Part shown: positions 16,009 to 31,818 of the stretch, piece by piece
Numbering within the stretch: the first letter of the stretch is position 1
Layout of the letters: each line of letters begins with the position of its first letter
Origin: Flavobacteriales bacterium
Lineage (GTDB): Bacteria > Bacteroidota > Bacteroidia > Flavobacteriales_D > Sanyastnellaceae
Reading direction: 5' to 3'
Assembly: GCA_002863125.1 (NCBI GenBank)
Contig: PKEB01000035.1
Coordinates: forward strand, 1 to 33,871
DNA: 33,871 bases
Position numbers and translations under genes: made by a program
Notes under the pieces: model-generated
What the model was told of the DNA's origin: nothing
What the model saw: the letters and a program-made list of their open reading frames with translations, nothing else
The model's database searches: none

Positions 16009-17322
16009 CTAAGCCGATTTTGCCGCTCTGCGCGCGAAAAATTGAATGTACAGGTAGCACACAATTGGCAAAACAAGCGCCACAGCGAATCCGCTTACAT
16101 CTGCCAGTGCCCCTACGGCAGGTGGAATGAAGGCCCCGCCGACGATAGCCGTACAGAGCACGCCGCTTCCCAGAGGTTTCAAATCGCCGAGTTCGCCAAT
16201 GCCCAACGTGAAGATGGTCGGGAACATGATACTATTGAACAGCCCGACCCCAATCAGGGCCAACAACGCTACCACACCCGATGTGGCGATGCTCAATGCA
16301 ATCAGGGCCACTGCGCCCAAAGCAAACAAAGCGAGCAGCCGACTCGGAGCGATTTTTTGCATCAGTGCAGATCCTACAAATCGACCAATCATCGCACCGC
16401 CCCAATAGAAGGTAAGCAAGGCGCCGATCAATCCTTTCGCATCCATACCCGCCAGTGTTTTACCGCTGATGCTCGCCGCTACGCTCGCCATTGACGCGAG
16501 CCAAGGCGTCTCACGAATGACTCCGTCAACGCCCAATTCCAACCCGTAGCCGACCATGTACGAGCCAATGGCCACCTCGGCCCCTACATAAACGAAAATC
16601 GCCACAGCCCCCATGCGCAAGGTCGTGTTGGACCAAACCTGCGCCATGCCGCCCGGGAGCTTTCCTCCCAGAATCCGGGGCAACTTGCTCAGGCCTATGA
16701 GCACCGCAAGCACCAAAAATCCCAAGGCCAAGAAAACGAATGGTCCTTGCACCGCAGCGGCTTCGCCCAATCGGTACGCCTCTAAATCCGCACTGCTCAA
16801 CGCAGCCTGTTCATCCGCCGTCAGGATTTGATCGCCGAGCAAGAAGCTGGCCGCAACAATGGGCGCTATGGTCGTACCCAATGAATTGAACGCCTGTGCC
16901 AGGTTGAGTCGACTCGAAGCGGTCTCAGGTGCACCCAAGACCGAGATGTACGGATTGGCAGCGACTTGAAGAATGGTAATACCACCAGCCACCACGAACA
17001 GTGCAAGCAAGAACAACACGTAGATCCGCGTCTCCGCTGCAGGGTAGAACAACAGGCAACCCAGTGCCGCCAATCCCAACCCAACCAAAATTCCCTTTTT
17101 GTAGCCGATGCGCTCGATGAGGTTTCCACCGGGTATGCTCAAGATGCCGTAGGCAGCAAACCAAGCGAACTGAACGAGGCCAGCTTGCAACAGGTTGAGT
17201 TCAAAAACATCTTTTAGGCGCGGGACAAAGGCATCCACCATGACGGTGATAAAGCCCCACATGAAGAAAAGCGTGGTGACAACGATGAACGGCCCACGGA
17301 ATGAAGAAGGGTTAGAGGTCAT
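16009..17322 (-). CDS. Sugar:H+ symporter of the FucP/GluP family (MFS)
   Basis: This 437-residue protein has 12 predicted membrane segments. The FucP-family signature is clear: LFFMWGFITVMVDAFVPRLKD at the N-terminus, then QVAANPYISVLGAPETASSR and LAQAFNSLGTTIAP in the middle. These features define the glucose/galactose or L-fucose permeases common in Bacteroidota. It would take up a neutral monosaccharide across the inner membrane; the exact sugar is not evident. No sugar catabolic gene is adjacent, and the next upstream gene on the strand is the large secreted protein, 39 bases away across a weak hairpin. A GTTATTTG box ends five bases before the ATG. Confidence 0.88.
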   Translation of the reverse strand: MTSNPSSFRGPFIVVTTLFFMWGFITVMVDAFVPRLKDVFELNLLQAGLVQFAWFAAYGILSIPGGNLIERIGYKKGILVGLGLAALGCLLFYPAAETRIYVLFLLALFVVAGGITILQVAANPYISVLGAPETASSRLNLAQAFNSLGTTIAPIVAASFLLGDQILTADEQAALSSADLEAYRLGEAAAVQGPFVFLALGFLVLAVLIGLSKLPRILGGKLPGGMAQVWSNTTLRMGAVAIFVYVGAEVAIGSYMVGYGLELGVDGVIRETPWLASMASVAASISGKTLAGMDAKGLIGALLTFYWGGAMIGRFVGSALMQKIAPSRLLALFALGAVALIALSIATSGVVALLALIGVGLFNSIMFPTIFTLGIGELGDLKPLGSGVLCTAIVGGAFIPPAVGALADVSGFAVALVLPIVCYLYIQFFARRAAKSA

Positions 17323-17361: not shown

Positions 17362-20300
17362 TTAGTGCATCAGCTGCAACGTGCCGGTGTACTCTTCAGC
17401 ATCCGTATTGTAGCCTTTCAAACGGATGATCCAATTGTAGATGCCGTTTTCGGCGTAGTGCGTGCCACCTTGAACGTCACCAATCCACACATCGTCCAAA
17501 TCCGTGCTGTGGAAAACGGTTTCACCCCAGCGGTTCATGATCCAGAGCTCGTAGTTCATGATTTGTGACCCCACCACTTTGAAGGCATCGTTGATGCCGT
17601 CGTTGTTCGGTGTAAAGGCCGTCGGCACGTACAACAAAACCGGACCGCGCACCACGGTGTACGCTTGATTGGTGCAGCCGACCCAACTGGTCACATCCAA
17701 GGTCACCGTATAGTCGCTCAAACCATCGAACACGTGGGTGGTAATCGCTTCATCGGATGAGTTGCCATCGCCAAAATCCCAGTCATACGAATAGGCACCT
17801 GGGAAAGGCTCTTCGGGCGAAGGAGTTGCCCGGAAGGTGTATTGATTCTCATCCGACTCTGACATGCTCGCCACGAAGTCGCTGAAGAGGTACTGGACTT
17901 CAATGTTGGTCGATGTGTCGATTTCTTCCCCGCAAATGTCTGTTGCAACGACCGGGTACACGGCCGATTGAAGCGGCGTGATGTATTGGACCGGACCGTA
18001 CGCATTGAGCGTTGGCCAGAAGTAAACAAAGCCTTCTTCACCGCCCATGGCCTCAACTTCCAGTGAGATGCCGTCACCGGCGCAAATCGTCGTCGACGGT
18101 GTTAAGTCGACGGACAACGGGATGTCTGGAATGTGGTACACCAACGAATCGTCGTCTGCACTGCCACAGCCGTCCGTCACGGCAACCGACACCGGAACTG
18201 TTCCATATGACTGCAGCGTGATATCCGACCCTTGATCGTACGGATCGCCGCTCACAAACCAATCGTAGGCGTAGTCCCCTGCGCCGCTGACGATTTCGAC
18301 GGGGATGTTGGTGAAATCTACGCAGCTCGCGTAGATGTCTGGCCCCAACTCCACCACCAAGGGCGGGTTATCAATCGTAACCAATGCACTGGCGGTGCCG
18401 CTTTGCCCACATCCGTCGTTGACATTGACTGAGAAGGTGGCACTTTCGCCTAACTGCACGTCAATGCTTGCGTCCGATTCGTTCATGTTGATTCCGTTCT
18501 GGAACCACGTGTATTGGTATCCTCCGCTGCCGCTGGTGACGTTCGCGGTGAGGTCAAACACCTCGGTGCACGGCCCAATCAAATCTTGCGGGAGACTGAC
18601 CTCAACATCCGGGGCGTCTACGATGATTTCGACGTTGGCCGATTCCGTTTGGCCGCAGTTGTCTGATACTTCCAGCACCAACGAAGCATCGGCACTGGTT
18701 TGCCAGTTGAGCGTCGCATCAAAGTCCAACCAGTTGTTGCCATTGAACCACGTGTAGAAGAACGGGCCTGTGCCATCCGCCGTGGCTGTAACGGTAAAGG
18801 GATCGTTGCACAGCACGTCAACGCTTTCCTCCACCGTGATTTCAATGGGCGGGATGTTGTATTCGACTTCAATGCTGTCCATCACTTCGAATCCGCACCC
18901 GTCTGTGAGGGTGATGAATACCTCGTCGGCCCCAACCCACGTGCTGAGGTCGAGCTGACTCGGGTCAAACCATGACCCCCACAAATTGTCTCCGTTCTGA
19001 TCGCTCCATTGGTATGCGTACACGCCGTCGCCACCTAAAGCGGTAGACGAAATGGTCGCAGTACCGTTGCACTCGAGTACCACCGGACCGGGGGTGGTGA
19101 TGTCGATTTCCAACGGCAGGAATTCGAGCACCTCAATCGCCACCTCCACATCGATGGGGTTCAACGCCAATTCGCACGTGTCTGCGACCGTCACAATGCA
19201 CGACCAGTCGTCATCCGGCGACAAGAGCAGCAGGGCTTCGTCATCGCCCTCTGGACAGGCCCAGTCAAACGTGTAATTTCCGTAACCACCGCTTACCACG
19301 GGGCCTACTTCGATTTCATCGCCTTGACAGATGGTCGTAGAAAAATCCGAAACCACAAACGGCGGCGGATCCTCGGCAACGTAGAACGTGAAGTAGGTTG
19401 TCAGGCCCCCACCGTTGCAGGCAGCCACGTTCTCAATTTGCATTTCCACCAACTCAGGCCCTTCATCAATGCCATCGATTTCCGCCACGAGATCAAATGA
19501 TACGATGCTCACGAATGGTTCAAACACCACGGAGTCGGGGAGCGGGAGCAAGCTGCCGTCGGGCTGGGGTTGACCGTAGTCGACGCCGTTCGTTGCCACG
19601 CTGTTGCCGTAGTCGATGTAAACCATCTCTTGAATCTCGAGGATGGTCTCAATGGGGCGTTCAAAAGTCAATGTCGCTTGACCGCAATCTTCATAAATGG
19701 TATTTGCCTCTGGCCCACCAACATCAATGGACAGGTTAATCTGAACAACGGCATTGGACTCAAACGAACCTTCTTCCAGAACCACAATGGATTCCAATGC
19801 TGTATCTGAACCATCGGCAATGGCCAATTTGATGTGGTACGTCTCACCACATTCCACAGGGTATTCAGCCTTGAACGGAACGGTGTAGCCATTGATGCAG
19901 ACATCCGTTCCACCTTGGTTGTCAACGTAGTATTCGGAATTGGTGCCTGAATTGACCGAAGAAATGGTAATGGGCAAGATGGGATCTGTCAAAGGCACAC
20001 CCGCGATGTTCACAGCACCGTCCGGAAAGCCCGCTGGGCTGTCGTAGGGCCCAGTGATTCCAGGACCGCTCAGGAAGAAGGCGAAGACATCGTTGTACTG
20101 CGTGTTGATCCATGTCTCGTATTCATCCGAGCCAAACACATAGTTGAAACTCACCGTATCCCCCGCTGCTACAAAATCAAATTCCAACACACACCCGTCA
20201 TTTACCGAGTTGACGGAGAATGATTCTCCGATCATACCAGGTACGGAGTTCGCAATGTCCAAGAGGTCTGGATCACTGAAACCCGTACCGAGGCATCCAT

Positions 20301-20598
20301 CACAAGCCAAAAAATCAGTTGGACATTCCAAGTTCTCGGCCACATCACAGCTCAGAACGAGCCCCGAACTGATGGAGAACACATCGTCACCGCCGGTCAG
20401 GTAGCCCAATTGGTTGGTGCCGCCTTGGTAGGTGATGTTCGACGCTTGGATACCGCTTCCCAGGAGGATGTCGTTAACGTATTCCTCCAGTGTCAATCCC
20501 GTCTCGACTTCAAGTTGGGCCTGGGTTTCGTTGACAAAACCAAACAATGACACCATTAAAAGCAGTGCCGCAGAAAATGCTTGGAAAAAACGGTTCAT
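17362..20598 (-). CDS. Secreted multidomain protein with choice-of-anchor-L-like, Ig-like and PKD domains and a CHU_C (T9SS type B) C-terminal domain
   Basis: The 1078-residue product has a signal peptide (1-28). A choice-of-anchor-L-like domain follows (~30-285; FNYVFGSDEYETW, VNIAGVPL), with a beta-domain at ~285-410. Six Ig-like units, roughly 416-900, each hold a Cys pair: 424/475, 510/568, 597/648, 677/730, 759/811 and 839/889; most end D-x-C-G. A PKD-like domain has WDFGDG (940-945). The last 88 residues (from VPTAFTPNNDGINDAF) are the gliding-motility-associated CHU_C domain, the type B sorting signal for type IX secretion. The protein is acidic and likely displayed or released at the surface as an adhesin-like molecule. 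Its partner function is unknown. Confidence 0.85.
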   Translation of the reverse strand: MNRFFQAFSAALLLMVSLFGFVNETQAQLEVETGLTLEEYVNDILLGSGIQASNITYQGGTNQLGYLTGGDDVFSISSGLVLSCDVAENLECPTDFLACDGCLGTGFSDPDLLDIANSVPGMIGESFSVNSVNDGCVLEFDFVAAGDTVSFNYVFGSDEYETWINTQYNDVFAFFLSGPGITGPYDSPAGFPDGAVNIAGVPLTDPILPITISSVNSGTNSEYYVDNQGGTDVCINGYTVPFKAEYPVECGETYHIKLAIADGSDTALESIVVLEEGSFESNAVVQINLSIDVGGPEANTIYEDCGQATLTFERPIETILEIQEMVYIDYGNSVATNGVDYGQPQPDGSLLPLPDSVVFEPFVSIVSFDLVAEIDGIDEGPELVEMQIENVAACNGGGLTTYFTFYVAEDPPPFVVSDFSTTICQGDEIEVGPVVSGGYGNYTFDWACPEGDDEALLLLSPDDDWSCIVTVADTCELALNPIDVEVAIEVLEFLPLEIDITTPGPVVLECNGTATISSTALGGDGVYAYQWSDQNGDNLWGSWFDPSQLDLSTWVGADEVFITLTDGCGFEVMDSIEVEYNIPPIEITVEESVDVLCNDPFTVTATADGTGPFFYTWFNGNNWLDFDATLNWQTSADASLVLEVSDNCGQTESANVEIIVDAPDVEVSLPQDLIGPCTEVFDLTANVTSGSGGYQYTWFQNGINMNESDASIDVQLGESATFSVNVNDGCGQSGTASALVTIDNPPLVVELGPDIYASCVDFTNIPVEIVSGAGDYAYDWFVSGDPYDQGSDITLQSYGTVPVSVAVTDGCGSADDDSLVYHIPDIPLSVDLTPSTTICAGDGISLEVEAMGGEEGFVYFWPTLNAYGPVQYITPLQSAVYPVVATDICGEEIDTSTNIEVQYLFSDFVASMSESDENQYTFRATPSPEEPFPGAYSYDWDFGDGNSSDEAITTHVFDGLSDYTVTLDVTSWVGCTNQAYTVVRGPVLLYVPTAFTPNNDGINDAFKVVGSQIMNYELWIMNRWGETVFHSTDLDDVWIGDVQGGTHYAENGIYNWIIRLKGYNTDAEEYTGTLQLMH

Positions 20599-20695: not shown

Positions 20696-21199
20696 TTAGT
20701 GGCGGAAGGCCGACAGCTGCGCACTTAGCTTGCGACGCGCATGGAAAATGCGGCTCTTCACCGTGCCCATCGGGATGCCCAATTCCTCGGCAATTTCATC
20801 GTAGTGAAATCCCTCCATGAACATGTTGAATGGCACCTTAAACTCGGGCTTGAGGTCATCGATGGCCCCGCGGATATCTTGCTCGTTAATTACGGTGGTT
20901 ACCGTATCCGATTGCATCGATCCTGAATTCAAGTAGAACTGGTTGTCTGTGGTATCCAGAATGGTGTTCTGGAATTTCTTGCGCTTGTAGTTGTTGATGA
21001 AGATGTTGCGCATGATGGTGTACAACCATCCTTTGATGTTCGTACCCTCTTTAAAATTGTTCTGGTACCGCAATGCCTTCACCATGGTATCTTGAATGAG
21101 GTCTTCTGCATCTTGCGAATCTCGCGTAAAACCAATGGCAAATCCCTTCAGAAACTGCCGATTCGCGACCAATAGTGCGTTGAATTCGAGTGTGCTCAT
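20696..21199 (-). CDS. ECF-type RNA polymerase sigma factor
   Basis: This 167-residue sigma-70 family protein has only regions 2 and 4. Region 2 includes DAEDLIQDTMVKAL (30-43) and the -10-binding stretch KGWLYTIMRNIFINNYKR (56-73). Region 4 has YDEIAEELGIPMGTVKSRIFHARRKL (133-158), a helix-turn-helix for the -35 element. The length and the Bacteroidota-type NIFINNYKRKK segment fit RpoE-like ECF factors. No anti-sigma gene or membrane partner follows. It is instead preceded on the same strand by a CarH-like MerR regulator, with a repeat-rich 144-base gap between. This suggests it is controlled by that regulator at the transcription level. Confidence 0.9.
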   Translation of the reverse strand: MSTLEFNALLVANRQFLKGFAIGFTRDSQDAEDLIQDTMVKALRYQNNFKEGTNIKGWLYTIMRNIFINNYKRKKFQNTILDTTDNQFYLNSGSMQSDTVTTVINEQDIRGAIDDLKPEFKVPFNMFMEGFHYDEIAEELGIPMGTVKSRIFHARRKLSAQLSAFRH

Positions 21200-21203
21200 G
21201 ACC

Positions 21204-21291
21204 TTTTGTTTAAAGTTTCAAGGCAAAGATTAAACAAAATCTCCTTGAATCCAAGGTTTTGTTCAACTTTTAGTCAAAATCTTTAAACAAT
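21204..21291. repeat. Four copies of a TTKTTYAA-like motif in alternating orientation upstream of the ECF sigma gene
   Basis: Copies lie at 21204-21213 (TTTTGTTTAA, + sense), 21230-21239 (TTAAACAAAA, inverted), 21257-21266 (TTTTGTTCAA, + sense) and 21282-21291 (TTTAAACAAT, inverted). Centres are about 24-27 bases apart. The outer two extend to an 8-base inverted pair, GTTTAAAG (21208-21215) and CTTTAAAC (21281-21288). They bracket the candidate sigma promoter. They are plausible operators for the upstream MerR regulator, by position only. Confidence 0.5.
21224..21254 (-). promoter_or_regulatory. Candidate promoter of the ECF sigma gene
   Basis: On the minus strand TTG (21252-21254) is followed after 20 bases by AATCTTTG (21224-21231), one mismatch from TAnnTTTG. 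The box is 24 bases before the ATG at 21199. One repeat copy (21230-21239) overlaps the box edge and another (21257-21266) abuts the TTG element, so a bound regulator would compete with or reposition polymerase. Confidence 0.45.
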
Positions 21292-21343
21292 TTTGGAAAT
21301 GAGCCGTTGAAAAGCTAGCACTGAACGTGCCTCGCTCGAAACA

Positions 21344-22246
21344 TCAAGCCTCGGCAAACAGCAGGCCAGCAAGGCTTGCGCCGTCCGTAACGGTCGTCAC
21401 TCTTTCTTTTCCTCCTACCCCTTCGAACACCTTACCGCCAAGGAGGAATTGATTTTCAGTACCGGCGAATTCCGATTCAATCAGTTCGACATAATCTGCA
21501 GCCTCCGACGAGGAGGGGTGCGTCGTGCAGTACGAAACGAATACGGCGTTCGGGAATTGATCGCCCACAGTAATCAAATCGTTGAAGGGGACGCTGGCGC
21601 CCAGAAAGATGCTTTTCAATCCATTCGCCCTGCACAAGAAATGGATGAATAGCAAGCTGATGTCGTGGATTTCACGCTCAGGCAAGTAGAGCACAATGGG
21701 CGGATGGTCTTCCCGCACCGGGATGTCTGCAACCGAGACCGCCGCATGCAACTCTTGCCGCATCAAATGGCTGATGAAATGTTCTTGAGCCGGACAGATG
21801 GCGTTGGTCAACCACAATACGCCAATCTGTGACAAAAACGGCAGGAACACGTCCAACACCGTTCCGTCCAATCCATGGTCTTTGGAATACTCTTCAACCA
21901 CTTTTTTGAAGAGCGTTTCATCGTAGTTGAGCATGCTCAACTTGAATTGGCTGATAACGGCACTGAGTCCTCCCTCCTCCATTTGCATGTCCCGGACCTT
22001 CTCAATCAAGGCTTCGTTGGAAAGTTGAGCCACTTTGGAAATTTTTCCGCCGTGTTCAATCAAGTAGCCTACGTTCAGCAGTTTCTTCAGGTCTTCACCG
22101 CTGTAATAACGAATGTTGGTCGCCGTTCGCTTGGGAACCAGCAAGCGGTAGCGTTGCTCCCAGGCACGAATTGTATGGGACTTGATGCCTGTGAAATGCT
22201 CCAAGTCCTTGATTGAGAATTGCTGTGCTATTCCTCTTTCCTTCAT
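21344..22246 (-). CDS. MerR-family regulator with cobalamin-binding photoreceptor-type domain (CarH/LitR-like)
   Basis: The 300-residue product starts with a MerR winged helix (9-75; FSIKDLEHFTGIKSHTIRAW). A helical-bundle domain (~95-170) has the W-x9-EH motif of CarH light sensors (Trp145, Glu155, His156). A Rossmann B12-binding domain (~183-300) has E-x-H (Glu192, His194), where His194 matches the lower axial cobalamin ligand. Ser238 and GG (270-271) are at family spacing. The Gly three residues after that His is Ser197 here. By family knowledge, such proteins bind adenosylcobalamin and repress as tetramers in the dark, and light releases them. The ECF sigma gene lies 144 bases downstream, the usual partner in Bacteroidota light-response loci. 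Confidence 0.88.
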   Translation of the reverse strand: MKERGIAQQFSIKDLEHFTGIKSHTIRAWEQRYRLLVPKRTATNIRYYSGEDLKKLLNVGYLIEHGGKISKVAQLSNEALIEKVRDMQMEEGGLSAVISQFKLSMLNYDETLFKKVVEEYSKDHGLDGTVLDVFLPFLSQIGVLWLTNAICPAQEHFISHLMRQELHAAVSVADIPVREDHPPIVLYLPEREIHDISLLFIHFLCRANGLKSIFLGASVPFNDLITVGDQFPNAVFVSYCTTHPSSSEAADYVELIESEFAGTENQFLLGGKVFEGVGGKERVTTVTDGASLAGLLFAEA

Positions 22247-22305: not shown

Positions 22306-23463
22306 ATGTCACACCTCGCCTTCTTCTCGGATGACCATTGGAAACATTTTTATCCCCTTGGCCCTTCCCATGCACATGGTGAATTGCGCACTGGTGCGCT
22401 GAAACTCAGTGAATGGTGGTCCAGAGAAGCAAGTTGCTTCTTTCAAAAAACCGAACAAGAAACCAAGGCAAAAGTTCTCAACCTCCTAAAAACCGGAAAA
22501 CTCAACGATCGTTGGATTCCGTCGGAGAATGCGTTTAAAATTCTAGCTGGCCTCGAACCTGGCCAGTCCCTTTACGCCGAGGGCACACTTTTGTTTCAGG
22601 AAAGTTCAACGAAAGAGGCCCGGCGTGTGAACGTTACCATGGACGGACTCGAGCTTGTCCCGCATACCACGGCCCTGTTCAGCCGATTGGATGCCTGGTT
22701 GTCCAGCCAAGCAGAGCACCTTGTCGCCGCTTGGGACCTCGCTGCGCCCAATGTGCCTGAACATGTAACGCTTTTGGGGCCGTCGGACCAGATTTGGATC
22801 CACCCTTCGGCAAAACTCACGGCATGCACCTTAAACGCGACGTCAGGGCCCATCTTCATAGGACCCGACGTGGAAATCCAAGAAGGGACGCACATCCGTG
22901 GTTCATTCGCTGTTGGTGAGGCAACCGTCATCAAAATGGGATCGCGTATTTACGGTCCAACGTCCATCGGTCCGAATTGCCGCATCGGCGGTGAAGTATC
23001 GAATTGTGCCTTCCTGGGATACAGCAACAAGGGACACGATGGATTTTTGGGCAATTCCGTGATCGGCAAATGGTGCAACCTCGGCGCCGACACCAATTCC
23101 AGCAACCTCAAAAGCAATTACAGCGAAGTGCGGCTGTGGGATGAAGCGACAGGCACCGAAGTCGATAGCGGACTGCAGTTTTGTGGCGTGCTGATGGGCG
23201 ACCACAGCAAATGCGGCATCAACACCATGTTCAACACAGGAACAATCGTCGGAACTGGCTGCAACATCTTCGGAGGCGGGTTTCAACCGAAGCACATTCC
23301 TCCTTTCGCTTGGGGCGGAAACGACACGTGGGACTTGCATGCCTTTGAAAAATTCATCGCCACCGCCCAACGCGTCATGGAACGCCGGGGAGCAACGTTG
23401 AGTGAAGAAGAAATTAGTCAATGGCGCACACAACATGAGGCTGCCCGCACTCGTTTCGATTGA
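22306..23463 (+). CDS. GlmU-like sugar nucleotidyltransferase family protein with left-handed beta-helix
   Basis: This 385-residue protein belongs to the Bacteroidota GlmU-like family. The C-terminal two-thirds (~160-345) is a hexapeptide-repeat beta-helix, with IFIGPDVEIQEGTHIRG and RIYGPTSIGPNCRIGGE. The family stretch GYSNKGHDGFLGNSVIGKW and NLGADTNSSNLKSNY follows. The N-terminal part corresponds to the nucleotidyltransferase-like domain. There, the usual family opening (LFDD...LLPLTFTRPVAE...R.G) reads FFSDDHWKHFYPLGPSHAHGELRTG, so the TRP motif is not preserved. It may act on a sugar-1-phosphate or acyl donor for envelope polymers, or have lost nucleotidyl transfer. It is divergent from the MerR gene and upstream of lon with a 93-base gap. 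Confidence 0.8.
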   Translation: MSHLAFFSDDHWKHFYPLGPSHAHGELRTGALKLSEWWSREASCFFQKTEQETKAKVLNLLKTGKLNDRWIPSENAFKILAGLEPGQSLYAEGTLLFQESSTKEARRVNVTMDGLELVPHTTALFSRLDAWLSSQAEHLVAAWDLAAPNVPEHVTLLGPSDQIWIHPSAKLTACTLNATSGPIFIGPDVEIQEGTHIRGSFAVGEATVIKMGSRIYGPTSIGPNCRIGGEVSNCAFLGYSNKGHDGFLGNSVIGKWCNLGADTNSSNLKSNYSEVRLWDEATGTEVDSGLQFCGVLMGDHSKCGINTMFNTGTIVGTGCNIFGGGFQPKHIPPFAWGGNDTWDLHAFEKFIATAQRVMERRGATLSEEEISQWRTQHEAARTRFD

Positions 23464-27053: not shown

Positions 27054-27752
27054 ATGGAACAGCGTAAAATCAACATTGCAATCGACGGCCATTCTTCAGC
27101 CGGCAAGAGCACGATGGCCAAAGCGCTGGCCAAGGAGTTGAATTTTGTCTACGTCGACACCGGCGCGATGTACCGAGCTGCGACGCTTTTTTGCATCAAG
27201 GAACGGCTGGTGGAAGGCAATGAAATCGATTCCAAAAAAATCGACCACGCCGTGGACCGCATGTACATTGGCTTCAAGTACAATCCTAAAACGGAACAAC
27301 CCGAAGTGCACTTGGGTGGAGCGAATGTCGAGGAGGAAATCCGTTCCTTGGAAGTAGCGAAAAAAGTAAGCCTAGTCGCCGCCATTCCCCGCATTCGCCA
27401 CAAGCTGGTGGAATTGCAACAGCGCATGGCTGAAACCGGAGGGGTCATCATGGACGGCCGCGACATAGGAACCGTGGTCATGCCCGATGCAGAATTGAAG
27501 TTTTTCATCACGGCCGACCCCCAAGTGCGTGCTGCCCGACGCGTGGACCAACTGAAGGAAACGAATCCCGAGGCGAAATTTGACGATGTGCTCAACAACC
27601 TCGTCGAACGCGACCGAATTGATTCGAGCCGAGCGGTAAGCCCCTTGCGCCAAGCTGACGATGCCATCGTTCTCGACAACAGCCATTTGACCCACGAAGA
27701 ACAGTTCCAGTTCTTGTTGGTGCATGCGCGCAAAGCGATGGCGGGCGAATGA
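27054..27752 (+). CDS. cmk: Cytidylate kinase
   Basis: This 232-residue kinase converts CMP/dCMP to the diphosphate in the cytoplasm. The P-loop is GHSSAGKS (12-19). VYVDTGAMYRA forms the nucleotide-binding region and IMDGRDIGTVVMP is the family's strongly conserved block. The lid segment has RAARRVDQL and ERDRIDSSRAVSPL. The length matches bacterial Cmk. The ATG lies 30 bases after porQ, and the stop overlaps the start of the next gene (ATGA), so cmk is probably part of the lon-porQ-cmk-GH3-bshA transcription unit. Confidence 0.95.
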   Translation: MEQRKINIAIDGHSSAGKSTMAKALAKELNFVYVDTGAMYRAATLFCIKERLVEGNEIDSKKIDHAVDRMYIGFKYNPKTEQPEVHLGGANVEEEIRSLEVAKKVSLVAAIPRIRHKLVELQQRMAETGGVIMDGRDIGTVVMPDAELKFFITADPQVRAARRVDQLKETNPEAKFDDVLNNLVERDRIDSSRAVSPLRQADDAIVLDNSHLTHEEQFQFLLVHARKAMAGE

Positions 27753-30691
27753 GATGGAACCTCTTGGCCGCTGCGTTTGCTAGCGCCTTATTCCAATTTT
27801 CCACGCCCTCATTCGGACAAGCGAAGCTGCCTGATTTTCTCGACGAGCCTCACACAGCCTATGCCGATTCAGTATTGGCCACCTTGACATTGCGTGAGCA
27901 AATCGCTCAATTGCTCATGCCACCCATTTATGCCCATGCTACGCGTGAGAACTGGGACGAGATGGAACGCTGGGTCGAAACCCATCAGTTGGGCGGCGTC
28001 ATCGCCATGCAAGGCGCACCTGCGCCCTACGCGGAGCGATTGCGTCGATTGCAAGACCGCGCTCAGATTCCACTACTGGTATCCACTGATGCCGAGTGGG
28101 GCTTGGGCATGCGCATCGATTCAACGCGTTCGTGGCCGCGCGCCTTGACCTTCGGCGCCGCCAATGACACGGCCCTCACGCGCGCCTTTGGCCGTGAGGT
28201 CGGACAATCATTGCAGGCCATGGGCATGCACGTCAACTTCGCTCCAGTGGTGGATGTCAACAGCAACCCGGCCAACCCCGTCATCGGCAGTCGGTCGTTC
28301 GGAAGCAGCACCGAATTGGCTGGGGTCTTGGGGAGCGCCTACTCCAAGGGCCTTCAAGATGTCGGAGTGCTCGCAACAGCCAAGCACTTCCCTGGACACG
28401 GCGACACGGACGCCGACTCGCACTATGCCTTGCCCATCATCCGACACGATCGGAGTCGGCTAGATTCCATCGAGCTCGCTCCATTCCGAACGTTGATCGA
28501 GGAAGGCGCGGGCGCTATTATGGCCGCGCACTTGTACATCCCTTCGCTCGACTCTACACCCAACCAACCCTCCACCCTGAGCCGCTCCATCGTTCAAGGC
28601 ATTTTGCGCGATGAATTGGGCTTTGAAGGCTTGGTGTTCACCGACGCCATGACCATGAAGGGCTTCACGTCCTTCACCCAAACTTCCACGCCCCACACGG
28701 ATGCATTGCTCGCTGGAAACGACGTGTTGCTTTTCCCGGGTGAACCCGCTGCAACGCTGGATGAGATCGAAGGACAGGTCCGCGCCGGACGATTGGATTC
28801 CGTGCTCATCGCGGACAAATGCCGCCGGGTGTTGGCCGCTAAATCTTGGACACAAGCCGCCCAAGCGCCGAAAGGCCAGTGGGACAGCAGCGCGGCCGAA
28901 GCACTGCACCGACAAGTCATCAGCAAGGCACTCACGGCCGTCAAAAACAACGCCCCCGGACTTCCTTTCGGTGCGCACGTGCGGCGCGTGAAACAGGTTT
29001 TCGTGGGATTCGACCCGGGTGAGATGGAAACTAGCAGCGGGCTCATTCAATCCATCTTGGGCTCCAAGGCTGAAGTCAACGGGGCCGCCTTGACCAAGGA
29101 GGCATTCGAGTCCGCGGGCATGAGCCAACTGGACGAAGCGTTGAGCAGCGAGCCCGACTGGGTGGTGCTGCACATTGGCGGTACGTCGCACCGGGCTGCG
29201 AAAGGGCACGGGGTGTCGGACGCGGCCATCGACAAGATTGCCAAGTGCGCTGCGCAAGCGCACAAGCGCAACGTGCCTTTTGCATTGGTCATTTACGGCA
29301 GTCCTTACCTGCTCAATCGCTTGCCTGCGGCCATCGCCTTGAGCGACGCGGTCATTGTCGCGTACCAGGATGACAGCCGCACCGTGGGAGCGGTAGCGAA
29401 TGCTTTGACTGGTGCCGGTCCCGCAGGCGGTCACTTGCCGGTCGCCACCGAACATTTCCCATTGGGCCATGGAATGCCCTGGATGGGACGAATGCGGTTG
29501 GGGTTTTCTGCCACGTCCATCGCGACGGCTGCCACCATTGACAGCATCGTCATCGACGCCATCGATGGAGGAGCCATGCCAGGATGCCGCGTGGTGGTCG
29601 CGCATGAAGGCTCCATCGTTCACGACGGCATCTATGGAACATTGGACGGGGAACAGCCGGTGCAGGCAGGCACGGTTTACGATCTCGCGAGCATCACCAA
29701 AATTGCCGCCTCCACCCTGTCCCTGATGCGCCTTGAAGAGGAAGGCAGAATCGCACTCAACGCCAGCCTCGACACCTACCTCCCCGAACTCGAGGGCACG
29801 GACATGGGGAGCCGGCAACTGCGGGACGTGCTGTCCCACCGCGCGGGGCTTCAATCGTGGATTCCGTTCTACTTGGCGGCCCTGGAAGACAGCACTGCCT
29901 TTTCGCCGGTGCGCACAGAGGTTCATCCGGAACGCATTTCCGACGCGTGCTTCATGCGACCGGCCTGGCGCGATTCCATTTGGGACCGCATTGTGGCTTC
30001 TGAAGTAGATACCGTGGGCACACACCGCTACAGCGACTTGGGGTATTACGCCATTCAACGCATCATCGAAGGGCTTACCGGCCAAGGCCTTGATCCCTAT
30101 ACGGCCGAGCAATTTTACACCCCGGCACACTGGTCCAGCCTCGGGTTCAAGCCCGCGAAAACCACCGCTGCTTCGATTGCCCCAACCGAGGTGGACACCT
30201 TATTTCGCCGGTGCACCGTTCAAGGAGATGTGCACGACCCCGGCGCGGCGATGTTGGGCGGTGTTTGCGGACACGCGGGGCTGTTTGGAAATGCCTACGA
30301 TGTGGCCCGGCTGATGTACATGCTGCGGATGGGAGGGACGTATGGCGGCGTGGATTTCTTTCAACCGGAAACCATTCAAGCGTGGACCCAACGCGTGGAT
30401 CCCGACCCGGATCACCGAAAGGCCTGCGGCTTTGACCGCCCGGCCAACGAACCGGACGCGGGTCCAACCTGCGATGAAGTCAGTGAGTCGAGCTTCGGTC
30501 ATTCGGGGTTCACTGGAACGCTGGCTTGGGCGGATCCCGACCACGACATAGTTTTTGTGTTTTTGAGCAACCGCACCTTCCCTTCGGCTGAAAACCGAAA
30601 GCTCATTGATTGGGACGTTCGAACCAAAGTGCAACACCAAGTGTATAAAGCGTACGGGATTCCATCCCGTTTCAAGAGCGAATTGGAATGA
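27749..30691 (+). CDS. Fusion of GH3 beta-N-acetylglucosaminidase (NagZ-like) and serine beta-lactamase-fold domain
   Basis: This 980-residue exported protein has a signal peptide ending near SFGQ (24). The GH3 half (~35-400) has the NagZ hallmark KHFPGHGDTDADSH (212-225) and nucleophile Asp299 (VFTDAMTM). A Rossmann-like linker (~410-590) follows. The C-terminal half (~595-965) is a class C beta-lactamase/esterase-type domain with SITK (648-651), YSD (761-763), the DPGAAMLGGVCGHAGLFG block (830-847) and HSGFTG (918-923). Together it could cleave GlcNAc from muropeptides and act on a peptide or ester bond in envelope material. This architecture is known in Bacteroidota; the second activity is unproven. 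Start and stop both overlap neighbours by 4 bases. Confidence 0.88.
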   Translation: MRWNLLAAAFASALFQFSTPSFGQAKLPDFLDEPHTAYADSVLATLTLREQIAQLLMPPIYAHATRENWDEMERWVETHQLGGVIAMQGAPAPYAERLRRLQDRAQIPLLVSTDAEWGLGMRIDSTRSWPRALTFGAANDTALTRAFGREVGQSLQAMGMHVNFAPVVDVNSNPANPVIGSRSFGSSTELAGVLGSAYSKGLQDVGVLATAKHFPGHGDTDADSHYALPIIRHDRSRLDSIELAPFRTLIEEGAGAIMAAHLYIPSLDSTPNQPSTLSRSIVQGILRDELGFEGLVFTDAMTMKGFTSFTQTSTPHTDALLAGNDVLLFPGEPAATLDEIEGQVRAGRLDSVLIADKCRRVLAAKSWTQAAQAPKGQWDSSAAEALHRQVISKALTAVKNNAPGLPFGAHVRRVKQVFVGFDPGEMETSSGLIQSILGSKAEVNGAALTKEAFESAGMSQLDEALSSEPDWVVLHIGGTSHRAAKGHGVSDAAIDKIAKCAAQAHKRNVPFALVIYGSPYLLNRLPAAIALSDAVIVAYQDDSRTVGAVANALTGAGPAGGHLPVATEHFPLGHGMPWMGRMRLGFSATSIATAATIDSIVIDAIDGGAMPGCRVVVAHEGSIVHDGIYGTLDGEQPVQAGTVYDLASITKIAASTLSLMRLEEEGRIALNASLDTYLPELEGTDMGSRQLRDVLSHRAGLQSWIPFYLAALEDSTAFSPVRTEVHPERISDACFMRPAWRDSIWDRIVASEVDTVGTHRYSDLGYYAIQRIIEGLTGQGLDPYTAEQFYTPAHWSSLGFKPAKTTAASIAPTEVDTLFRRCTVQGDVHDPGAAMLGGVCGHAGLFGNAYDVARLMYMLRMGGTYGGVDFFQPETIQAWTQRVDPDPDHRKACGFDRPANEPDAGPTCDEVSESSFGHSGFTGTLAWADPDHDIVFVFLSNRTFPSAENRKLIDWDVRTKVQHQVYKAYGIPSRFKSELE

Positions 30692-31818
30692 AGAACCTGC
30701 GCATTGGCTTTGTGTGTTACCCCACGTTCGGGGGGTCCGGTGTGGTCGCCACTGAATTGGGCAAGGCCCTCGCGGACAAGGGGCACGAGCTCCATTTCAT
30801 CACGTACAGCGCTCCCGCGCGTATGGGGAGTTTGAAAAAAAACCTCTACTACCACGAGGTACGTGTCAGCGACTACCCGCTCTTCGATTACCAGCCGTAT
30901 GAACTGGTCTTGGCCTCGAAGATGGTCGAAGTGGCCAAAACCCATGACCTCGACCTGCTCCATGTACACTACGCCATTCCCCACGCGAGTGCCGCCATCA
31001 CCGCGCGTGATATCCTGGCCAAGGAAGGAATCAACTTGCCCATTGTCACGACGCTCCATGGAACGGACATCACCCTGCTCGGGAAAGACCCCGCATTCGA
31101 ACCGGTCATTGCCCACGCCATCAACGAATCCAATGCGGTGACGGCGGTATCGCACAGCCTCAAAAGCGACACGCTCGAATTATTCGGGGTTGATCGAGAA
31201 ATCGAGGTCATCCACAACTTCATCTGCCCTTCCCATTTTGAACGGGACGCCGACGAACAGTTCCGTCGATCTGCAGCCCCTAATGGCGAACCGATCATCA
31301 CACACATTTCGAATTTTCGACCGGTCAAGCGCGTTAAAGATGTGGTTGATGTGTTTGCAGCGGTTCGTTCGAAGCAACCGGCAAAATTGCTGCTCGTTGG
31401 CGACGGCCCTGAGCGATCGCGCGCCGAGAAACGCGCCGAAGACCGGGGTGTGCGAGCGGATGTCGTGAGCATCGGTAAAATCAAAAATCCCATTGAACCG
31501 TTGCTCGTCAGTGACTTGTTTTTGCTGCCGTCAGAAACAGAAAGCTTTGGCCTCTCCGCACTGGAAGCCCTTGCTGCGGGCGTGCCCGTAGTCGCCTCCG
31601 ATGCCGGCGGACTGCCCGAGGTTGTGGAACACGGGGTCAGCGGATACCTCGCGGCGGTTGGCGACGTGGAAGCCATGGGGCGTCACGCGCATGCCTTGCT
31701 CGACAACCCCGATCAACACGCTGCATTCAGGGCAGCTGCACAAGCCCGCGTTCAGGAATTTCACGTCATGAAAATCTTGCCGCATTACGAGGCCATCTAC
31801 CACCGGCTCACCCCGTAA
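30688..31818 (+). CDS. bshA: N-acetyl-alpha-D-glucosaminyl L-malate synthase BshA
   Basis: This 376-residue GT4-family glycosyltransferase shows diagnostic BshA motifs: CYPTFGGSGVVATELG (10-25), HVHYAIPHA (92-100) and TTLHGTDITLLG (121-132). It also has the E-x7-E nucleotide-sugar motif (Glu285, Glu293) in ETESFGLSALEALAAG. It joins GlcNAc from UDP-GlcNAc to L-malate, the first step of bacillithiol, a low-molecular-weight thiol used by many Bacteroidota. It overlaps the GH3 fusion gene by 4 bases (ATGA). bshB and bshC are not in the window. Confidence 0.94.
   Translation: MKNLRIGFVCYPTFGGSGVVATELGKALADKGHELHFITYSAPARMGSLKKNLYYHEVRVSDYPLFDYQPYELVLASKMVEVAKTHDLDLLHVHYAIPHASAAITARDILAKEGINLPIVTTLHGTDITLLGKDPAFEPVIAHAINESNAVTAVSHSLKSDTLELFGVDREIEVIHNFICPSHFERDADEQFRRSAAPNGEPIITHISNFRPVKRVKDVVDVFAAVRSKQPAKLLLVGDGPERSRAEKRAEDRGVRADVVSIGKIKNPIEPLLVSDLFLLPSETESFGLSALEALAAGVPVVASDAGGLPEVVEHGVSGYLAAVGDVEAMGRHAHALLDNPDQHAAFRAAAQARVQEFHVMKILPHYEAIYHRLTP

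Follow-up and report, generated by a model that had tools for sequence, protein, structure and literature searches.

What does a regulator resembling vitamin B12-based light sensors control, when none of the genes around it looks like an output? The question is raised by a stretch of 33,871 nucleotides from the genome of a marine Flavobacteriales bacterium (assembly GCA_002863125.1, contig PKEB01000035.1; G000:C25:1-33871), called the window here in its full length, which carries a merR gene for a CarH/LitR-like protein (P0001) followed, 144 bp further on the same (-) strand, by a sigma factor gene (P0002), both as open frames. The genome comprises 2.27 Mb in 35 contigs, is 98.7 percent complete and has Flavobacteriales bacterium UBA6969 as its closest named record (MerR identity 96 percent). 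An initial annotation had proposed that the pair may control a dispersed light or B12 regulon, and this is supported by two DNA motifs of the genome: an operator-like palindrome, located at the sigma gene and upstream of a proteorhodopsin gene, and a promoter-like motif, located at crtI, crtB and a photolyase/cryptochrome gene. From these sequence patterns a two-tier light/B12 circuit appears probable, in which the sigma and proteorhodopsin genes would be controlled directly, and the carotenoid and photorepair genes through the sigma factor. The alternatives weighed below each replace one step of this explanation and are not mutually exclusive.

The merR-sigma pair and its B12-type regulator

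P0002 matches sigma-70 region 2 (3e-15) and region 4 (8e-12), while region 3 is absent in the Pfam search, and it is therefore of the extracytoplasmic function (ECF) type. The sigma gene described 3' of merR was thus verified, and profile matches identify the flanking genes as had been reported: a cargo gene of the type IX secretion system (T9SS) and a GlmU-like gene (TIGR03991, 340.8 bits vs a cut-off of 225.3), neither of which is thought to be part of the regulatory system.

The MerR protein was found in 55 of 60 related genomes, its own included. The window and 64 loci retrieved for their similarity to MerR make up 65 sources, of which 62 contain a sufficiently full MerR frame and 45 a sigma relative, absent copies often lying at contig ends. 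The pairing goes beyond chance, as both genes occur, with enough sequence 3' of merR to be scanned, in 44 loci including the window. A GlmU-like cluster accompanies 37 of the 65 sources, and the order of a divergent glmU-like gene, merR, sigma and choice-of-anchor-L gene is kept in the window's lineage; because of this conservation, the glmU/lon location, which is that of the window's own family, is normal rather than odd there. The remark that no output genes lie nearby holds locally, while probable outputs are located on other contigs. The expected vicinity of carotenoid genes is correct for other families of the order, where merR and/or sigma lie directly upstream of crtI in nine of ten crtI loci, and fails for the window's family (0/20; 17 loci of the genus and 3 others). 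Linkage was scored within the fetched 1.5 kb, one weak and unrelated sigma match in L132 being excluded.

P0001 is placed in the CarH/LitR branch by sequence and by predicted fold. Its Pfam matches to MerR_1 (4e-13, 49.7 bits) and to the B12-binding_2 cap (8e-8, 32.8 bits) are both above cut-off, and its best sequence relatives in the PDB are chains of Thermus thermophilus CarH (TtCarH, 3e-20), whose W131, E141, H142 and H177 align with W145, E155, H156 and H194. The W-x9-EH motif and H194 noticed in the initial annotation were thereby verified in the frame. An AlphaFold2 model built on a 37-row alignment reached a predicted local distance difference test score of 88.3, and the best 50 of its 94 Foldseek matches at E <= 0.001 are PDB chains of TtCarH, the light-responsive CtMerR of Chloracidobacterium and one photocobilin. 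Conservation was counted in 49 MerR loci for whose retrieval no peptide pattern was used, several genomes being represented twice and 48 loci reaching E192/H194: W145 and H156 are kept in 49/49, E155 in 48/49, and E192 and H194 in 48/48. A cobalamin adenosyltransferase and two other proteins above the B12-binding cut-off (open frames of 684 and 1138 amino acids) are encoded in the same genome, so that adenosylcobalamin (AdoCbl) is a plausible ligand, likely made by the bacterium.

Several features weigh against a light sensor of the TtCarH kind. The Rossmann B12-binding domain scores 13.6 bits with PF02310, under the cut-off, although CarH and CarH-like chains top the Foldseek results of the model. 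The position of TtCarH His132, missed in the initial annotation, is Leu146 in P0001, and across the 49 loci it is Leu in 36, Gln in 9, Met in 3, Lys in 1 and His in none. The GxxH signature is broken, Gly being replaced by Arg191 (Gly is found in 15/48 loci), and ExHxxG appears as ExHxxS; of the four parts of the SignatureFinder light signature (GxxW, EH, GxxH, GxxxP), P0001 has three, GxxH failing, and crt-linked relatives such as L150 have all four. The score against the CarH equivalog NF052513 is 85.8 bits, below the NCBIfam cut-off of 400. Since His132, GxxH and this cut-off are all wanting, the protein is best named CarH/LitR-like rather than CarH on sequence grounds.

These losses bear on the signal. 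It may be that the MerR protein binds the same operators and controls the same genes, the photoswitch having been lost from its pocket, and that it senses B12 status, redox or another signal. The lack of His at the His132 position in every locus and the loss of GxxH in the window's lineage speak for this, as does the literature: His132 ligation is linked to TtCarH disassembly, and the H132A variant was impaired in one study, staying largely tetrameric in light, although an earlier study cited in the same paper saw disassembly (PMC10442372). On the other side, the remaining adenosyl- and cobalt-contacting residues are kept, the putative targets (proteorhodopsin, crt, photolyase and folE genes) resemble light genes, and CtMerR, with Arg at this position, passes from tetramer to monomer in light, the His132 equivalent not being needed for its response (PMC11796333). 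Loss of the photoswitch is thus considered unlikely, and light sensing remains the preferred reading.

A seemingly invariant Cys151-Pro152 was dropped as a candidate signature. It was apparent in 57 sequences (window included, at least 270 amino acids) from loci found via peptide patterns, CPAQEHFI among them, which makes the argument circular; the same table has no His at the His132 position either, and was left unused for being pattern-selected. Of the 49 pattern-free loci, 35 have Cys as residue 151, and the remainder have Asn, Asp, Thr, Ser or Met there. As a side observation, Cys occurs in the MerR loci of glmU/lon type and the other residues in many crt-linked relatives, which also retain GxxH more often, so that the surroundings of the B12 pocket are not the same in both branches.

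Palindromes at the sigma and proteorhodopsin genes

Two operator-like palindromes, O1 and O2, are spaced 53 bp apart within the merR-sigma gap, O2 ending 6 bp 5' of the sigma start codon (Table 1). Their consensus, TTGTTTAA-N16-TTRAACAA, is conserved across families. O2 contains a stretch similar to the Bacteroidota -7 consensus TAnnTTTG, as quoted in PMC3587595. In a scan limited to 230 nt 3' of merR, at least two sites with <=2 mismatches were found in 28 of the 44 merR-sigma loci, one site in 9 and none in 7; in the 28, the site-to-site offset is 53 bp in 24 loci, 52 in 2 and 54 in 2.

At <=1 mismatch the window's genome holds three sites, two at the sigma gene and one on contig C19, and none of the reversed pattern; matches at 2-3 mismatches were discarded as background (reversed pattern 40/39 vs 25/26). 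The 60 genomes together, own included, hold 176 sites vs 41 reversed at <=1 mismatch, and the 22 genomes of the genus 48 vs 6, with 39 of these 48 at merR-sigma or proteorhodopsin in the loci examined. Some MerR-bearing genomes (G029, G034, G055) have no such site, which counts against the proposed circuit.

Could the palindromes belong to another transcription factor, the adjoining MerR being a passenger? Binding by the MerR protein is predicted from sequence, and the 41 reversed matches imply that part of the 176 sites is background. Nevertheless, many families have a site in the merR-sigma gap, in L195, L208 and L236 one is located at the merR start as well, and the enrichment follows the regulator: 166 vs 35 reversed in the 55 genomes with a MerR match, compared with 10 vs 6 in the five without one. 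A passenger role is therefore regarded as very unlikely, and the MerR protein likely binds the palindrome and controls the sigma and proteorhodopsin genes.

The third site of the genome, on C19, is situated 69 bp upstream of a 237-amino-acid gene of the bacteriorhodopsin family (PF01036, 3e-38; no NCBIfam match at 1e-10). A D-x3-T-x6-E pattern is read in its sequence, which we take to represent the proton-pump residues of proteorhodopsin. A proteorhodopsin relative was found in 33 of the 60 genomes, own included, and in 19 of the 22 of the genus; the 33 matched genomes gave 30 loci and 29 upstream regions, L168 being dropped for too little upstream sequence. The operator precedes the gene in 9/29 regions at <=1 mismatch and in 15/29 at <=2 (10/17 in the genus, 5/12 outside), compared with 0.0007 and 0.0066 per region in dinucleotide shuffles, that is 0.2 expected over 29 at <=2 mismatches, and with 0/29 for the reversed pattern at the latter threshold. 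The other 14 regions lack it at <=2 mismatches, including all four scanned from one subclade of the genus (G007, G011, G014, G020), and these weigh against a general rule: the association holds for about half of the genes, not for all.

In the upstream regions L157-L174, inspection by eye shows a stretch like TGTTCTCAGGACAC that follows the operator, ahead of the start codon, and is conserved in much of the genus; it is weaker in the subclade lacking the operator and may be the site of a second regulator.

MerR family members are often activators, and the protein might occupy the sigma and proteorhodopsin sites whether active or not, remodelling the promoter on activation, with no repression in the dark. 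The proteorhodopsin palindrome, at its distance from the start codon, is not clearly over a promoter, which would suit an activator. At the sigma gene the layout is repressor-like, O2 covering the -7-like element and ending just before the start codon, and the characterised CarH proteins repress (PMC9304148). Activation in the classical manner thus seems decidedly unlikely in comparison with dark repression.

Among the matches listed in the open-access literature, subscription papers lying largely outside, there was no prior report of control of proteorhodopsin by CarH, LitR, MerR or another light regulator, and in the account of Dokdonia PRO95 the regulation of flavobacterial proteorhodopsin was left open, with the statement that "further work is needed" (PMC3587595).

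Further genes facing the operator were collected from two sets of loci. Twenty operator stretches, mostly without mismatch, were hand-picked from among the sites listed, and include all zero-mismatch sites listed that had no known merR, sigma, crtI or proteorhodopsin location; 30 loci, L187-L216, were not hand-picked and represent one per genome. In other families the operator separates merR from sigma-crtI, or else the gene facing it is merR, sigma, crtI, dxs (1-deoxyxylulose-5-phosphate synthase) or folE (GTP cyclohydrolase I), and in addition a short-chain dehydrogenase gene and a DUF2805 gene with an adjoining photolyase-like frame. Less obvious genes facing it encode DUF4397, PKD/GEVED, a TonB receptor, an RpoD-like sigma factor and one unassigned frame. 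The content of L187-L216 is ECF sigma 11, FAS1 5, proteorhodopsin 2, and one each of merR, crtI, DXS, DUF2805 and DUF4397; in the remaining seven (L188, L189, L191, L194, L196, L198, L213) the sites are inside or at unassigned frames.

Eleven FAS1 (fasciclin) genes of other genera and families face the operator, and for two of these a photolyase-like gene is the divergent neighbour. As FAS1 proteins include AstaP, an algal carotenoid carrier of photooxidative stress (PMC7477208, PMC10147662), the bacterial FAS1 targets may, by analogy, be light-induced carotenoproteins. Separately, a doubled operator, 54 bp apart, was observed in front of a gene for an RpoD-like sigma factor that has regions 1.2 to 4 (L217:2341-2426; G052:C49); a second RpoD with unknown promoter has been described in Dokdonia genomes (PMC3587595).

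A second motif at carotenoid and photolyase genes

The search of the genome for crtI/crtB and photolyase genes that the initial annotation had recommended located crtI, crtB and a photolyase/cryptochrome gene, all on other contigs. Direct control of crtI or photolyases by the operator was rejected for this genome, as there is no site at <=3 mismatches in L108-L111; in 20 crtI upstream regions (16 of the 17 genus loci and 4 others) the best operator match has 4 to 7 mismatches. Most crtI upstream regions of the genus, where the operator is absent (16/17 loci scanned), share instead the motif TGAACAA-N14-TTGTT-N8-ATG with fixed spacing.

Exact copies of TGAACAA-N14-TTGTT number exactly two in the window's genome, at crtI and at the photolyase/cryptochrome gene on contig C8. 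With the ATG at +8 and <=1 mismatch there are exactly three sites vs 0 reversed, the third being at crtB. Across the genus (22 genomes), the ATG form is listed at 39 sites vs 3 reversed, of which 28 are at crtI, crtB or photolyase/cryptochrome: 17 at crtI, 6 at crtB (one crtI and three crtB assignments being by position) and 5 at the orthologue of the C8 gene. A recurrent family accounts for 5 more (three translated, two by site similarity), and 6 are at other genes, one of these opening a short crtI-like frame. An SRPBCC label tried for the recurrent family (L262, L266, L275) proved unsupported, with no Pfam match for L275.

The GAAC-type upstream half and the fixed spacing are in keeping with an ECF promoter, from which transcription would be initiated at the start codon or close to it. 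We infer that the neighbouring sigma factor reads it, because of the gene content of the targets and the linkage of sigma and crtI in sister families. Four points tell against the strength of this case: the motif was derived from crtI before being tested, the genus matches are related by descent so that their counts are not independent, the form without ATG is not clearly enriched in the genome at <=1 mismatch (14 vs 9 reversed), and of 13 crtI loci from outside the genus, most of which have crtI shortly after sigma, a single one shows a loose form.

The motif might otherwise be read by a different sigma factor, or be a variant arrangement of MerR half-sites, leaving the crt and photolyase genes outside the control of this sigma. 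In favour of this, TTGAACAA resembles an operator half, and the sigma attribution draws on gene content and on linkage seen in other families. The constant N14 and N8-ATG distances and the GAAC-type half suit a promoter better, and half-site symmetry is lost at the crtB and photolyase copies. This alternative is rather unlikely, and the promoter reading is retained.

The crt cluster of the genome itself (L108:5783-10774) was observed to hold a CrtID-type desaturase gene above the NCBIfam cut-off, crtB, a NUDIX (idi-like) gene and a second desaturase-like gene. Elsewhere in the window there are genes for a fucose permease family transporter (TIGR00885, just above cut-off), a GH3 glycosidase fused to a beta-lactamase-type (serine hydrolase) domain and BshA of bacillithiol synthesis (TIGR03999, 527.7 bits).

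Table 1. Features of the merR-sigma region and of the window (positions in the window), and locus sets carrying the operator (locus handles)
Feature	Position or loci	Strand	Content or basis
CarH/LitR-like MerR regulator, 300 amino acids (P0001)	21344..22246	-	Helix-turn-helix, helical cap and predicted Rossmann-type B12-binding domain
ECF sigma factor, 167 amino acids (P0002)	20696..21199	-	Regions 2 and 4
Operator-like palindrome O1, TTGTTTAA-N16-TTGAACAA	21259..21290	-	Sequence
Operator-like palindrome O2, TTGTTTAA-N16-TTAAACAA	21206..21237	-	Sequence
TAATCTTTG within O2, like the Bacteroidota -7 element; exceeds TAnnTTTG by one base	21224..21232	-	Sequence resemblance
TTGG, possible -33 element, 18 bp before TAATCTTTG	21251..21254	-	Inference
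GlmU-like gene, divergent from merR; conserved neighbour	22306..23463	+	TIGR03991
Choice-of-anchor-L T9SS cargo gene, downstream of sigma; conserved neighbour	17362..20598	-	
Fucose permease family transporter gene	16009-17322		TIGR00885
GH3 glycosidase/beta-lactamase-type fusion gene	27749-30691		
BshA gene	30688-31818		TIGR03999
FAS1 genes facing the operator	L207, L211, L215, L216, L220, L221, L225, L226, L228, L232, L234		
ECF sigma loci in L187-L216	L190, L192, L200, L202, L204, L205, L206, L208, L209, L212, L214		

The proposed circuit and its known relatives

The gene pair, its conservation, both DNA motifs and their positions are solid. In the circuit built on them, the MerR protein, probably as an AdoCbl-bound oligomer in the dark, would bind the palindromes; the two at the sigma gene would cover its probable promoter and block transcription, and the single one upstream of proteorhodopsin would control that gene. 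Light, or a lack of B12, would free the MerR protein, the ECF sigma factor and proteorhodopsin would be made, and the sigma factor would in turn start transcription of crtI, crtB and the photolyase/cryptochrome gene at TGAACAA-N14-TTGTT promoters, each set 8 bp upstream of the start codon. We infer dark repression, AdoCbl and light as the signal from the family resemblance. In sister families, where merR, operator, sigma and crtI stand together, sigma and crtI would be a single unit under the operator. The pair of the window's genus is apart from the crt cluster with its operators kept, and there crtI, crtB and the photolyase/cryptochrome gene are apparently reached through the sigma factor, proteorhodopsin having the operator itself.

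A broader claim, which we hold to be evenly poised, is that a Flavobacteriales branch of B12 photoreceptors without the His132 of TtCarH, and thus with other light-state chemistry, directly controls proteorhodopsin, and in the genus also carotenoid synthesis and DNA photorepair via an ECF sigma factor with a defined promoter, B12 supply gating phototrophy. For flavobacterial proteorhodopsin control, the proposal names a regulator, together with three DNA sites of a single genome, a sigma factor and a candidate promoter. If true, it would make phototrophy dependent on vitamin B12, for which many marine bacteria rely on uptake.

P0001 shares with CarH of T. thermophilus and LitR of Bacillus megaterium the MerR helix-turn-helix, the helical cap and, by its model, the Rossmann domain, W-x9-EH and the lower axial His, as well as the linkage to carotenoid genes, seen here in sister families; it differs from them in lacking His132 and GxxH, in its ECF sigma partner and in proteorhodopsin as a probable target. 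In Streptomyces coelicolor, the LitR-LitS system reportedly consists of a B12-type MerR regulator adjoining an ECF sigma factor, as in the window, and governs light-induced carotenogenesis, in another phylum and with no proteorhodopsin. A MerR regulator before crtI has been noted in the genome announcements of Sediminicola YIK13 (PMC4732338) and Flavobacterium TH167 (PMC5887021), in their excerpted text without a link to an operator, a sigma factor or rhodopsin, and probably represents the crt-linked arrangement that the sister families show here. The class II LitR proteins PplR and PmlR of Pseudomonas have overlapping light-induced targets, namely photolyase, folE, a cryptochrome-like gene and a short-chain dehydrogenase, and act, unlike the window's system, with a LOV photoreceptor (PMC9758184). 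CtMerR of Chloracidobacterium thermophilum (PMC11796333; PDB 8jbs/8jbt), a light-responsive B12 MerR protein, has, like P0001, no His132 equivalent, at 14 percent identity in the Foldseek alignment.

Operator design separates the system from its closest structural relatives, and this too weighs against a simple equation with CarH: the operators of TtCarH and BmCarH are tandem 11-bp direct repeats (PMC9304148), compared with the N16 palindrome doubled 53 bp apart found here. CarA of Myxococcus xanthus is a B12-independent paralogue of CarH with an antirepressor, CarS, another repeat sequence and an origin in another phylum; its operator of ~55 bp consists of two inverted repeats, upstream of and over the promoter, bound by two dimers (PMC9304148). 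By its sequence layout, the doubled inverted repeat of the window would recall CarA more than the direct repeats of TtCarH, and the CarA operator is the nearest known design.

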